NCBI GenBank assembly: GCA_019454225.1
Contig: CP075370.1
Location: forward strand, 3,343,649 to 3,407,648
Reading direction: 5' to 3'
Source: Paracoccaceae bacterium
GTDB taxonomy: Bacteria > Pseudomonadota > Alphaproteobacteria > Rhodobacterales > Rhodobacteraceae
Length of the DNA: 64,000 nt
The notes below the pieces were generated by a model, which did not search any database, had not been told where the DNA came from, and saw only the letters and a program-made list of their open reading frames with translations. Below are positions 23,741 to 28,350 of this stretch, piece after piece (position 1 is the first letter of the stretch; each line of letters starts with the position of its first letter). The translations under genes were made by a program, and so were the position numbers.

Positions 23741-23923
23741 CAAACCGAACATGTCCACGGGAACGCATCCTGCCACAGCATTTCATGCGCCGCTGCACAA
23801 TACGCCGCCAGGCCATTGGAAAGACAGGGCTATGCTGATTTCGCGCCCGAATGCCGCAGCGGATGACGATCTGCGGCGCCTGTGGCAGATGCTGCGAATT
23901 CCCCGATTCACGGCAGCCGCGCC

Positions 23924-25145
23924 GTGACACCCGCACCGCGCGCCGCGCTGGCCTTCATCATCTGCACCGTCACGCTTGACGCGATCGGGATCGGCCTGAT
24001 CTTTCCGGTGATGCCCGCCCTGATCGAGGAGGTGACGGGCGGCACGCTGTCGGATGCCGCGATCTGGGGCGGCGTGATCGCCACCTCCTTTGCCGTCATG
24101 CAGTTCCTGTTCGGCCCCGTCGTCGGGGCGCTGTCCGACAGGTTCGGGCGCCGCCCGGTGCTGCTGGTCTCGCTGGCCGTGATGTCGGCGGACTATGTGG
24201 TGATGGCCGTGGCCCCGACGATCTGGCTGCTGCTTCTGGCGCGCATCGTGGCGGGCATGGCGGCGGCAACCCATTCCACCGCCGCCGCCTTCATCGCCGA
24301 CATCTCGGCCCCGGCGGACCGCGGCCGCCGTTTCGGCCTGATCGGGGCGGGCTTTGGCGTGGGCTTCGTGCTGGGCCCGCTGATCGGCGGCCTTCTGGCG
24401 GGCATCGACACCCGGGCGCCGTTCTGGGCCGCCGCCGCCCTGGCCGCCGCGAACCTGACCTTCGGCGCGCTCGTGCTGCCCGAAACCGTCACCGCCGCCA
24501 CCCGCCGCCCGTTCAGCCTTGCCCGCGCCAACCCGCTGGGCGCGCTGCGGGCCGTCACCCGCCTGCGCGCTGCGCCTGCCGCTGCTGACCTTCCTGCTGC
24601 TCGGCATCGCGATGAACGTCTACCCGGCGATCTGGGCCTACTACGGCACCGCCCGGTTCGGCTGGGATACCACGATGATCGGGGTATCGCTGGCGATCTA
24701 CGGCATTTCCTTTGCCGCCGGTCAGGCGCTGCTGGTCGGGCCGCTGATCCGCAGGTTCGGCGAACATCGCGCGGCGCTGTACGGCATGTGGGTCGATGTC
24801 ACGACGCTGGCCGCGCTCGGCCTCATCACATCGGGCCTGCTGGCGCTGTTCGTCACCCCGATCACCGCACTCGGTGGGGTCGTCACCCCGGCGCTGCAGG
24901 CCATCCTGTCGCGCCAGACGCCCGAGAACGCGCAGGGCGAGTTGCAGGGCGTGCTGTCCTCGCTCAACGCCATCGCGATGATCACGGCACCGCTGGTCAT
25001 GACGAATGTCTTTGCCCTGTTCACCGCCCCATCGGCGCCGGTCTTCGCACCGGGGGCGCCCTTCCTGCTGGCGGCGCTCCTGATGGTCGCGGCCATTGCA
25101 GCGCATGTCGCGGGCGGCCGCGCGGCGCAGGGCGCGCACGCCTAG
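23924..25145 (+). pseudogene. MFS transporter (TetA-like), frameshifted
   Basis: The gene encodes a 12-helix major facilitator resembling tetracycline-type drug/proton antiporters. The first part starts at GTG 23924, has DAIGIGLIFPVMPAL, and the loop 2-3 motif GALSDRFGRRPVLL. Around 24566-24570 the reading frame shifts: family-like sequence resumes one base further on (LRLPLLTFLLLGIAMNVYPA) and runs to TAG 25145. Removing one base there gives 406 residues, the normal family length. The base lies in a CGCGC run, so either a real inactivating insertion or a sequencing slip is possible. The second part has no start of its own. Confidence 0.8.
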
Positions 25146-25195: not shown

Positions 25196-26458
25196 ATGAA
25201 GCTTCAGTCGCTCGAAATCTTCGTGGTCGCGCCCCCCGCCCCCGGCTGGGGCGGGCGCTACTGGATATTCCCCCGGCTGACGACCGCCTGCGGCATCACC
25301 GGATACGGCGAATGCTACGCCTCGACCGTGGGGCCAAAGGCGATGCAGGCGGTGATCGAGGATGTGTTTTCCCGCCACATGGAGGGCGAGAACCCCGAGA
25401 ACATCGAGCTGATGTTCCGCCGCGCCTATTCGTCCGGCTTCACGCAACGCCCCGACCCCACGGTCATGGGCGCCTTCGCGGGCCTGGAAATCGCCTGCTG
25501 GGACATCCTCGGCAAGGCCCGCAACCGCCCGGTCTGGGCACTGCTGGGCGGCCGGATGAACGACCGCATCCGCAGCTACACCTACCTCTACCCCGAACCC
25601 GGACAGGAATCGGCCGAGTTCTGGGTCAGCCCCGAGATGGCGGCCGAAGCGGCCGCACGCTTCGTGTCCATGGGCTTCACGGCGGTCAAGTTCGACCCTG
25701 CCGGCCCCTATACGATCCGGGGCGGCCACCAGCCCGCGATGTCGGACATCTCGCGCTCGGTCGCCTTCTGCAAGGCGATCCGCGAGGCGGTGGGCGACCG
25801 TGCCGACCTCTTGTTCGGCACGCACGGGCAGTTCACCACGGCAGGCGCGATCCGCCTCGGCCGCGAGATCGAACCCTACAACCCCCTCTGGTACGAGGAA
25901 CCGATCCCCCCCGACAACCTGGCCGAATTCGCCAATGTGGCCGCCCAGGTGCGGGTGCCGCTGGCGACCGGCGAACGCCTGACCACCAAGACCGAATTCG
26001 GCGCGCTCCTGCGCATGGGGGGGGTCAAGATCCTGCAACCGGCGCTCGGCCGGGTGGGCGGAATATGGGAGGCCAAGAAGATCGCGGCGATGGCCGAGGT
26101 GTTCAATGCCGAGATGGCGCCCCATCTTTATGCCGGGCCGGTCGAATGGGCTGCGAACATCCATCTGTCGGCGTCGATCCCGAACCTGCTGATCGCCGAG
26201 ACGATCGAGACGGGCGGCGCCTTCCACCAGCGGCTGATCCGCCACGCGATCCGCTGGGAAGACGGCTACATCATCCCGCCCGAGGCCCCGGGCCTGGGCA
26301 TCGAGTTCGACGAGGACCTGGCGCGCGCCCACCCCTACACCGGCACCCGGCTGCATCTGGAGATGCAGGAGGCGCCCTGCGGCTACCGCGAGCCGAACCG
26401 CTTCGAGGGCGGCGCGCCCTCGTCGATCCCGCACGACCGGGGGCCGGTCACTCGCTGA
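25196..26458 (+). CDS. Enolase superfamily (mandelate racemase/muconate lactonising) enzyme
   Basis: The 420-residue enzyme has the N-terminal capping domain and a TIM barrel. Visible active-site elements are K165 in VKFDPAGPY, the metal ligands E234 in YEEPIPPDN and E260 in TGERLT, and a late histidine in MAPHLYAGP. Members dehydrate or cycloisomerise sugar acids; the precise substrate is not readable. The frame is the same as that of the N-terminal half of the upstream transporter, so a naive caller may report a false 858-residue fusion. A run of eight Gs occurs at codons for MGGV. Confidence 0.85.
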   Translation: MKLQSLEIFVVAPPAPGWGGRYWIFPRLTTACGITGYGECYASTVGPKAMQAVIEDVFSRHMEGENPENIELMFRRAYSSGFTQRPDPTVMGAFAGLEIACWDILGKARNRPVWALLGGRMNDRIRSYTYLYPEPGQESAEFWVSPEMAAEAAARFVSMGFTAVKFDPAGPYTIRGGHQPAMSDISRSVAFCKAIREAVGDRADLLFGTHGQFTTAGAIRLGREIEPYNPLWYEEPIPPDNLAEFANVAAQVRVPLATGERLTTKTEFGALLRMGGVKILQPALGRVGGIWEAKKIAAMAEVFNAEMAPHLYAGPVEWAANIHLSASIPNLLIAETIETGGAFHQRLIRHAIRWEDGYIIPPEAPGLGIEFDEDLARAHPYTGTRLHLEMQEAPCGYREPNRFEGGAPSSIPHDRGPVTR

Positions 26459-26888
26459 TGCTGTTCGACCGGGTGCGCAGCGTGAACCGCTCCGTCGCAT
26501 AGGCCGGCTCCCAGGGCCGGTTCACCGCAAGGCAGCGCGCGGTGCCCGCCTCGGCCTCCTTCAGCGAGGGGTAGAACGGGAAATCGTTCGTCGCGACGGG
26601 CAAGGCCCTGCGGCGCAACTCGACCACGACAAGGCCCAGCAGCTCGCGCCTGCGGCTCAGCACATGCGAGCTGGCGGTTTCGGCAAAGGACAGGCCGCAG
26701 ACACCCAGCCGCCCCCCCATGTCGCGAAGCGAGGCCACCATGACAAGGCCGGGCGTGCCATCGAACGACAGCTTGATCCCCTCGATATGCCCCGTCAGCT
26801 TCACGCGCGTATCCGCCTGCGCCACCCCCGCCAGCATCGCCCCCGCAACCAGGGCCAACGCCCCGAGAACCCGAAATCCGCCGAACAT
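26448..26888 (-). CDS. Hypothetical secreted protein
   Basis: A 146-residue product with a signal peptide (VLGALALVAGAMLAGVAQA, cleavage near residue 25) and a periplasmic domain of about 120 residues with two cysteines. I do not recognise the family. It is tail-to-tail with the enolase-superfamily gene, overlapping it by 11 nt. Start ATG 26888 has GGGAGAA nearby. Confidence 0.6.
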   Translation of the reverse strand: MFGGFRVLGALALVAGAMLAGVAQADTRVKLTGHIEGIKLSFDGTPGLVMVASLRDMGGRLGVCGLSFAETASSHVLSRRRELLGLVVVELRRRALPVATNDFPFYPSLKEAEAGTARCLAVNRPWEPAYATERFTLRTRSNSISE

Positions 26889-26998
26889 GTTCTTCTCCCG
26901 AATGCCCGATCCAATCCCCGCAGCATCATGCGCGGACGCAGGCCGGGCAACGGATCATCGGTATAGGTCAGGCCGGGCGGCGGCGCCTGACCAGCCCA

Positions 26999-27589
26999 TC
27001 AGTCCAACCTGCCCTGGACCCACGCCGCCAGACGGTCGAGCAGGGCATGGGGATCATCGCCCGCCGCGTCCAGCCCGCGTTCCTGCAGTGCATTCCGAAG
27101 GCCGGACATGGCGCGGGGCCGCATTGCGACCAGCGATGCCTGATCCTCGATGTCGCCGGGCGCGTGCCGCGCACTCTCGATCTGGCCCGTGAAATCGATG
27201 CCGAACTGTTCGCGCAGCCAGTCGAGATCCTCCGCGTCGATATGCTGGCGGACCAGATCGGGCGAGAACCGGAACTTGCCGGGCAGGCCCTGGGACAGCA
27301 GCCCCACGACACGGCGGCGCAGCCGGATGTCGGCCTCGGGACTGCGGCGAAGCGCCTCGGGCAGCATCCAGTCGATCGTCAGCGCGACAATCTCCGACGA
27401 AATGCTCTCGTTGCTGCGCACCACCTTGATCCCGCTGGCATCGATGCCGATGCGCGCCGCGAAATCCTTCACCACGCAGCCCTCGGGAAAGCCGGACGCC
27501 TCATAGGCCCAGACCTCCAGCCTGTCCGCGCCGAACGCGTGCTGGAACTTCTCGAACCGCTTGCGGTACTCCGGCCGGGACAGGCCCAC
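26999..27589 (-). pseudogene. 5'-truncated sulfotransferase-like fragment
   Basis: About 196 residues with a basic, helix-rich C-terminal pattern (SRPEYRKRFEKFQHAFGADR, then CVVKDFAARIGID), which resembles the end of bacterial sulfotransferase-family proteins. The P-loop (PAPS-binding) part expected upstream is missing: the 5' end stops where the integrase remnant begins at 27588. No good ribosome site precedes the GTG at 27589. I read it as a gene cut by recombination. The family match is from recall and moderate. Confidence 0.5.
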
Positions 27590-27743
27590 GGCCCACCAGA
27601 TCGGCGCCTGGATAGGCCACGAAAGCCTGTCCGAGGTGCAGCACTACACCCGGGCAGCCGACCGCCGCCGCGCCGTGATGGGAACAGAACGGGACGGGAA
27701 CGTTGCAACCCATGCGTCCCAAATTGCAACCCGCCGGAAATAA
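27588..27743 (+). pseudogene. Tyrosine recombinase (integrase) C-terminal remnant
   Basis: Roughly 51 codons encode TAHQIGAWIGHESLSEVQHY and the following TRAADRRRAV before a stop. The GH motif and the catalytic tyrosine in HYTRAAD are the last two active-site elements of phage-type integrases. Everything upstream, including both catalytic arginines, is absent. The remnant ends 30 nt from the 3' end of tRNA-Arg, the usual attachment site of such elements. Confidence 0.75.
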
Positions 27744-27773
27744 CCTAGCACTTACAAAACGTTACGGATGGGA

Positions 27774-27850
27774 TGGCGACCCCGGGAGGACTCGAACCCC
27801 CAGCCTTGGACTTAGAAGGTCCCTGCTCTATCCGGTTGAGCTACGGGGCC
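27774..27850 (-). tRNA. tRNA-Arg (anticodon TCT)
   Basis: A 77-nt cloverleaf with encoded CCA: acceptor GGCCCCG pairs with CGGGGTC, D arm GCTC/GAGC, anticodon loop CTTCTAA (TCT, reads AGA), and T arm GGGGG-TTCGAGT-CCTCC. The top anticodon-stem pair is a G-A mismatch. The gene's 3' end faces the integrase remnant, so it was probably an attachment site. Confidence 0.95.
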
Positions 27851-27888: not shown

Positions 27889-28350
27889 TCAGATTTCGCG
27901 CGTCATGAAGGCGGAATTGGGATCGGGGCCATAGCCCTCGAAGGGTGCGCAATAGGTGAACCCGGCGATCTCGTACAGCTTGCGCGCCGGGGCGAAACTG
28001 TCCTGTGCGCCGGTCTCCAGCGACAGGCGGCGCAGCCCCATGGCGCGCGCCTCGGCGATCAGGTGGTCCAGCACCTTCCGCGCCAGACCGCGCCCCCGCA
28101 GTTCGTGCAGCACATGCATCGACTTGATCTCGGCATGGCTGCCCGACAGCAGCTTGAACGCGCCCATCCCCACCGGCATCCCCACATCGCGCAGCACGAA
28201 GAACCGGATCCCCGGCGCGGTCAGCGCGCCACGGTCCATCATGTGGATGCTTTCGGGCGGGGTGTCGGCATGCATCGCCTGGGTATGGCGGTCGAACAGC
28301 AGGCCGAGATCGGCACCCAGCGGGCTTTCCTCGGTGATCCGCAGGCTCAA
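27889..28350 (-). CDS. GNAT family N-acetyltransferase
   Basis: A 153-residue acetyltransferase. The acetyl-CoA loop appears as [20 protein letters not shown] (Q/RxxGxG/A type), followed by [19 protein letters not shown] and [16 protein letters not shown], a pattern seen in small-molecule acetyltransferases. The substrate is unknown. It starts at TTG 28350 inside the stop of the upstream gene (TTGA), so it depends on coupled translation. Confidence 0.85.

Follow-up and report, generated by a model that had tools for sequence, protein, structure and literature searches.

A tyrosine integrase remnant at tRNA-Arg(TCT) in a Paracoccaceae bacterium: a scar most likely left by a lost prophage

In the window, that is, the whole stretch of 64,000 nucleotides analysed here, a tRNA-Arg(TCT) gene was located by ARAGORN on the minus strand (27774..27850), its 3' end being an attachment site. 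On the plus strand, the last 51 codons and the stop of a tyrosine integrase gene (27588..27743) run towards this tRNA end; the codons cover 27588-27740, the stop TAA 27741-27743, and the frame encodes TAHQIGAWIGHESLSEVQHYTRAADRRRAVMG... The fragment was recognised by homology and keeps the GH and YT motifs, the rest of the gene being missing. Between its stop and the tRNA 3' end lies a spacer of exactly 30 nt (27744..27773, plus strand), as the first-pass annotation had stated; it is presumably phage-derived and has the same length in phage RcapNL and viral contig L211. The adjoining 15 nt, TGGCGACCCCGGGAG (27774..27788, plus strand), are part of the tRNA and form the attachment core on the attL side, as indicated by matches in RcapNL and in viral contig L214. 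At its other end the integrase fragment meets a 5'-truncated sulfotransferase-like gene on the minus strand (26999..27577), of which about the last 190 residues were recognised by blastp to relatives. The junction lies at about 27575..27588, with integrase homology from 27588 and sulfotransferase-like homology by about 27575. Next to these stands a hypothetical protein of 146 residues (26448..26888, minus strand), which was found at this place only here and may belong to the host or to an insert. The surroundings are a GNAT acetyltransferase gene as the ancestral near flank (27889..28350, minus strand; profile and homology) and, as the ancestral far flank, a gene that is 83-90% identical in relatives (25196..26458, plus strand) and that we take from its sequence to belong to the enolase superfamily.

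The 51 codons had been read as the C-terminus of a tyrosine integrase, and homology bears this out. The best phage match is the RcapNL integrase (71% identity over 38 residues, E 1e-10) and the best viral contig match that of L211 (67% over all 51 residues). At E<=1e-3 the fragment finds matches in 30 of 295 family genomes, its own included, the best in another genome having an E-value of 5.4e-14. In an alignment with five full-length relatives, homology sets in at residue 318 of the L211 protein (368 residues), and the GH and YT positions are invariant across all six rows. Four full-length relatives match PF00589, a profile of 172 positions of which the fragment covers only the end. The 51 residues alone have no Pfam match at E<=1 and no PHROGs match, and as a 60-residue frame no NCBIfam match. 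The fragment is thus assigned to PF00589 by its homology to matching proteins and by its GH and tyrosine motifs, while it neither matches the profile itself nor holds a complete catalytic domain. PF00589 has six matches in this single-contig genome, five of them above cut-off, and all lie away from the scar. A genome search for the N-terminal part with the full RcapNL integrase returned the fragment and one distant integrase only, the query being distant enough for a diverged piece to be missed.

The position of the fragment against the tRNA follows a pattern seen in related phages. In RcapNL, the 15-mer TGGCGATCCCGGGAG starts exactly 30 nt past the integrase stop and has one difference from the tRNA end of the window (14/15, the best of 500 shuffles being 11). 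In L214 this 15-mer follows the integrase stop at a distance of 58 nt (14/15; best of 500 shuffles 12). L211 carries, exactly 30 nt past the stop, a 15/15 copy of the end of tRNA-Lys(TTT), where 200 shuffles tried on 72 tRNA ends reached 13 at most; the Arg core is matched there at only 10/15, and the site of L211 is tRNA-Lys, not Arg. The 30-nt spacing consequently recurs in the two nearest phage sequences, RcapNL and L211, with different tRNA targets, and because both carry tRNA-end copies at this distance, the window keeps their kind of attL layout. The same rule allows the attachment site of RcapNL to be predicted, related integrases placing a tRNA-end core 30 nt past the stop (Arg in RcapNL, Lys in L211). 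The likely attP core of RcapNL is L070:3187-3201, which repeats the 3' end of tRNA-Arg, and that of L211 is L211:5147-5161, with the same kind of integrase and spacing and a different tRNA. RcapNL is listed as a temperate phage found as a prophage (PMC8601537), and the main text of that article contains neither the word 'attachment' nor 'attP'.

A survey of integrase relatives extends this picture. The survey listed 34 matches in other family genomes, 29 of which became loci, and a tRNA converges with the integrase end in 26 of the 29 (18 Arg, six of them TCT, 2 Met, 2 Glu, 2 Lys, 1 Ser and 1 Leu). Twenty-three of these tRNAs lie 0-111 nt from the integrase, 13 of them at 20-39 nt; the remaining three show a 6-nt overlap, an integrase frame reading on into the tRNA, and a distance of 878 nt. 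No tRNA was called in three loci, one lacking a tRNA (L043) and two being cut by contig ends (L045 and L055). A spacer of 27-30 nt was seen in six relatives. In the window, too, the integrase adjoins and converges with the tRNA 3' end, as is usual in tRNA-site elements. A G2-U71 pair in the acceptor stem was considered as a fossil of a phage-replaced tRNA end and rejected as uninformative, because it is the common state in tRNA-Arg(TCT), present in 44 of 74 such genes at loci outside the three occupied ones described below.

The minus-strand frame on the other side of the junction is open across 26999-27589. Against the open frames of relatives, blastp gave 33 matches with 24-43% identity; in most of them the fragment aligned from its own residue 2-8, and in every case the alignment starts at residue 150 or later of the stop-to-stop frame in the relative. 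Because the fragment is matched from its own start, but only past residue 150 of the relatives, its 5' part is missing, and the integrase and sulfotransferase-like genes have both been truncated at their 5' sides at one junction. The earlier reading that the integrase tail meets a 5'-truncated gene of the opposite strand at about 27588 therefore holds, with the breakpoint at about 27575-27588 and with 'sulfotransferase' as a label by resemblance. Pfam names neither the fragment (best, a sub-threshold SAP match, E 0.13) nor the one full-length relative tested. The longer aligned relatives begin with a motif like GMHKTGSSSIQ, which we take to be sulfotransferase-like; this P-loop-like N-terminal motif is gone from the fragment together with its N-terminal part. 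The missing half was not found in the genome, where a full-length query, only 28% identical and hence liable to miss a diverged piece, finds this fragment alone. The best match among 394 family genomes is only 32% identical, and no relative was found in phage records nor, by a close-relative search, in viral contigs. It is very unlikely that the headless frame is translated as a new protein with the help of junction sequence, so that prophage loss would have created a functional shortened gene beside the tRNA.

The ancestral state of the site was approached with the neighbouring acetyltransferase, a scan with which gave 144 relatives, the best 80 being kept as syntenic loci; the genus is represented by one genome only among those searched. 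tRNA-Arg(TCT) stands behind the acetyltransferase in 76 of these best 80 of 144. Both the tRNA and the enolase-family gene were found in 43 of the 80, the other loci having no strong enolase match in the stretch or no tRNA call, and in 41 of the 43 the enolase-family gene is downstream of the tRNA and convergent with it (it is on the other side in L088 and L142). The distance from the tRNA to the enolase homology is at most 99 nt in 19 of the 41. The order acetyltransferase, tRNA, enolase-family gene is thus conserved in relatives, and since the enolase gene follows the tRNA in 41 loci, the roughly 1.3 kb at 26459-27773 is an insertion, a scar or a lineage-specific gene. Neither the sulfotransferase-like piece nor the 146-residue frame was found in the 80 syntenic loci (best 80 of 144) at E<=1. 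With the sulfotransferase-like piece absent and integrase matches limited to the three full-length genes described below, these loci do not show the arrangement as one conserved without an island. No relative among these loci and 394 family genomes was found to have the two genes at this place without a prophage. Weak relatives of the 146-residue protein (23-37% identity, best E 2e-10) occur at E<=0.01 in 18 of 294 other family genomes.

The tRNA-enolase interval contains other genes in other lineages. In the two loci whose genes were read, acetyltransferase-like and cupin-like frames (by eye) were seen in that of L082 and a 414-residue protein with no Pfam family in that of L119, and relatives of the L082 interval genes lie between tRNA-Arg and the enolase gene in L074, L075, L076, L078 and L079. 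As related small genes are found there in near relatives, the interval evidently gains and loses genes. When full-length integrases were compared with 20 long intervals, from 22 loci of which two were left out, the only matches outside the window were weak ones in L090 and L150 (two, E 0.005). In tblastx, 32 residues of L075 paired with the window (41%, E 8e-5), but in a frame other than that of the integrase, and this was taken as chance.

Intact elements were found at the same tRNA. Integrase matches at E<=1e-5 in the 80 syntenic loci consist solely of three full-length genes, and these, of the fragment's family, lie directly behind the same tRNA-Arg(TCT) in 3 of the best 80 of 144, namely in Pseudorhodobacter sp. 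PARRP1 (L125; L209 is the same element viewed in its genome), an alphaproteobacterial MAG (L134) and Xinfangfangia pollutisoli (L097). Nine chosen proteins, three each from L134, L209 and L211, were scanned against PHROGs. All three from L134 (HNH endonuclease, methyltransferase, transcriptional regulator) and all three from L211 (tail protein, structural protein and an HNH of the same family as that of L134) were matched, as were two of the three from L209 (capsid/protease protein and primase-like protein). Because phage-type proteins are present in these elements, a prophage is the likeliest source of the scar. At the two boundaries of the L209 element, 9.66 kb apart, stand identical copies of a 15-mer from its tRNA end, which is homologous to the core of the window. 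Below the repeat there is a single match to other loci (L141, about 4.4 kb beyond it), and with only this far-flank match the far boundary is placed by the 15-nt repeat. The element of about 9.66 kb (L209:8266-17930) is much smaller than RcapNL and may be either a phage satellite or a prophage that has been reduced. No repeat of at least 14 nt was found behind the tRNA in L097 (4.2 kb searched) or L134 (9.9 kb searched).

A duplicated tRNA 3' end, suggested earlier as a check, was not recognised in the scar. In 26400-27743 the best 15-mer match to the tRNA end is 11/15 (300 shuffles, mean 10.7, maximum 13), and the 15-nt core has no place within 3 mismatches, so that no direct repeat marks a far boundary. 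Genome-wide, a 25-nt tRNA-end pattern finds one other place, with 3 mismatches, which is a tRNA-Arg(CCT) gene. The 15-nt core finds four places with a single mismatch and a further 44 with two, whereas the reversed pattern finds 15. Of the one-mismatch places, the closest lies on the island side at 38 kb from the tRNA, past conserved host genes, and is taken as chance.

The view that an island integrated at this tRNA and has since largely disappeared agrees with the integrase family, the orientation and the 30-nt spacing, which are as in intact elements, and with the occupied sites of relatives. From the phage-type content of those elements we infer that the lost element was most likely a prophage; in the scar itself no frame of 26448-27743 reaches the cut-off of any Pfam family, those of phage structural or replication genes included. 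A temperate phage with an RcapNL-like integrase would have recombined site-specifically, through its attP, with the tRNA-Arg(TCT) 3' end; its own copy of the core would have kept the tRNA whole, and its integrase gene would have ended 30 nt away. A single later deletion would then have begun inside the integrase gene, removed everything else of the prophage, the far attachment site (attR) included, and ended inside a sulfotransferase-like gene adjoining the prophage, leaving behind attL, the integrase tail and the headless neighbour gene. We infer such a one-sided deletion, running from the integrase through attR into the neighbouring gene, and consider it the probable origin of the scar, with reasonable rather than high confidence, because the two truncations and the missing repeat are accounted for in one step.

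Alternatively, the sulfotransferase-like and 146-residue genes may have been cargo near the far end of the element, an internal deletion having joined the integrase tail to the sulfotransferase-like gene and attR having been lost separately or decayed. This is possible and clearly the less probable course. Both genes may have arrived in this lineage only, as neither occurs in the syntenic loci, and an internal deletion yields the same head-to-head truncation. However, attR should then still be seen, and an extra event is needed to remove it. Moreover, the lack of a match to the sulfotransferase-like gene in phage records and viral contigs speaks against cargo and agrees with a host-neighbour origin, although with a best family match of only 32% identity, and with no relative found that has the two genes here without a prophage, either origin may apply. 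This piece is more likely a neighbour gene that the deletion also truncated than a part of the island's cargo. Third-position G+C was tried as a marker of origin and did not separate the pieces: it is 0.86 and 0.88 in the two genes, 0.75 in the integrase piece and 0.90 in the enolase gene and uvrB, with a mean of 0.81 (sd 0.09) over 38 heuristically picked ORFs of the window and a range of 0.74-0.84 over the six integrase ORFs of the genome.

Two further explanations carry little weight. That the 51 codons form an open frame by chance or end an unrelated gene, the junction being no scar, is suggested by the silence of Pfam, NCBIfam and PHROGs on the fragment alone, but is highly improbable given the integrase identity of up to 71%, the conservation of the GH and YT motifs and a position against the tRNA like that of relatives' integrases. 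In SSV-type archaeal elements the integrase is split upon integration, and a split of that kind, with the other part at the far end or elsewhere, would fit a C-terminal part adjoining the tRNA, but is the least credible explanation of all, since in relatives the gene stands complete next to the tRNA at similar spacing and the genome search with the RcapNL integrase, a distant query, found no N-terminal part.

The scar left, in our preferred reading, by a single one-sided deletion is a decayed tRNA-site element of a known kind and a case of ordinary genome decay. Island remnants with integrase fragments at tRNA sites are known from many genomes, and the present one resembles them in its decayed integrase beside a tRNA 3' end; it differs in that attR is unrecognised and the junction enters another truncated gene. 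RcapNL (Capnelvirus; integrase YP_007518416.1) is alike in integrase sequence and in the stop 30 nt before the copy of the tRNA-Arg 3' end, but is a whole phage of 40,489 bases, whereas the window keeps an integrase tail and attL only. The L125/L209, L134 and L097 elements share site, orientation and integrase family with the scar, but have a full-length integrase, and L209 retains both 15-nt repeats. The locus, for which no published description was found within limited full-text searching, would be a clean example of a prophage leaving one end, attL and the integrase tail staying while attR and a piece of the neighbour are lost.

Elsewhere in the window, an MFS transporter gene (by eye; 23882-25145, plus strand) is split over two frames near 24.5 kb. 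Both parts share one frame in all 16 relatives where both were found, and the split probably reflects either disruption of the gene or an error in sequencing.
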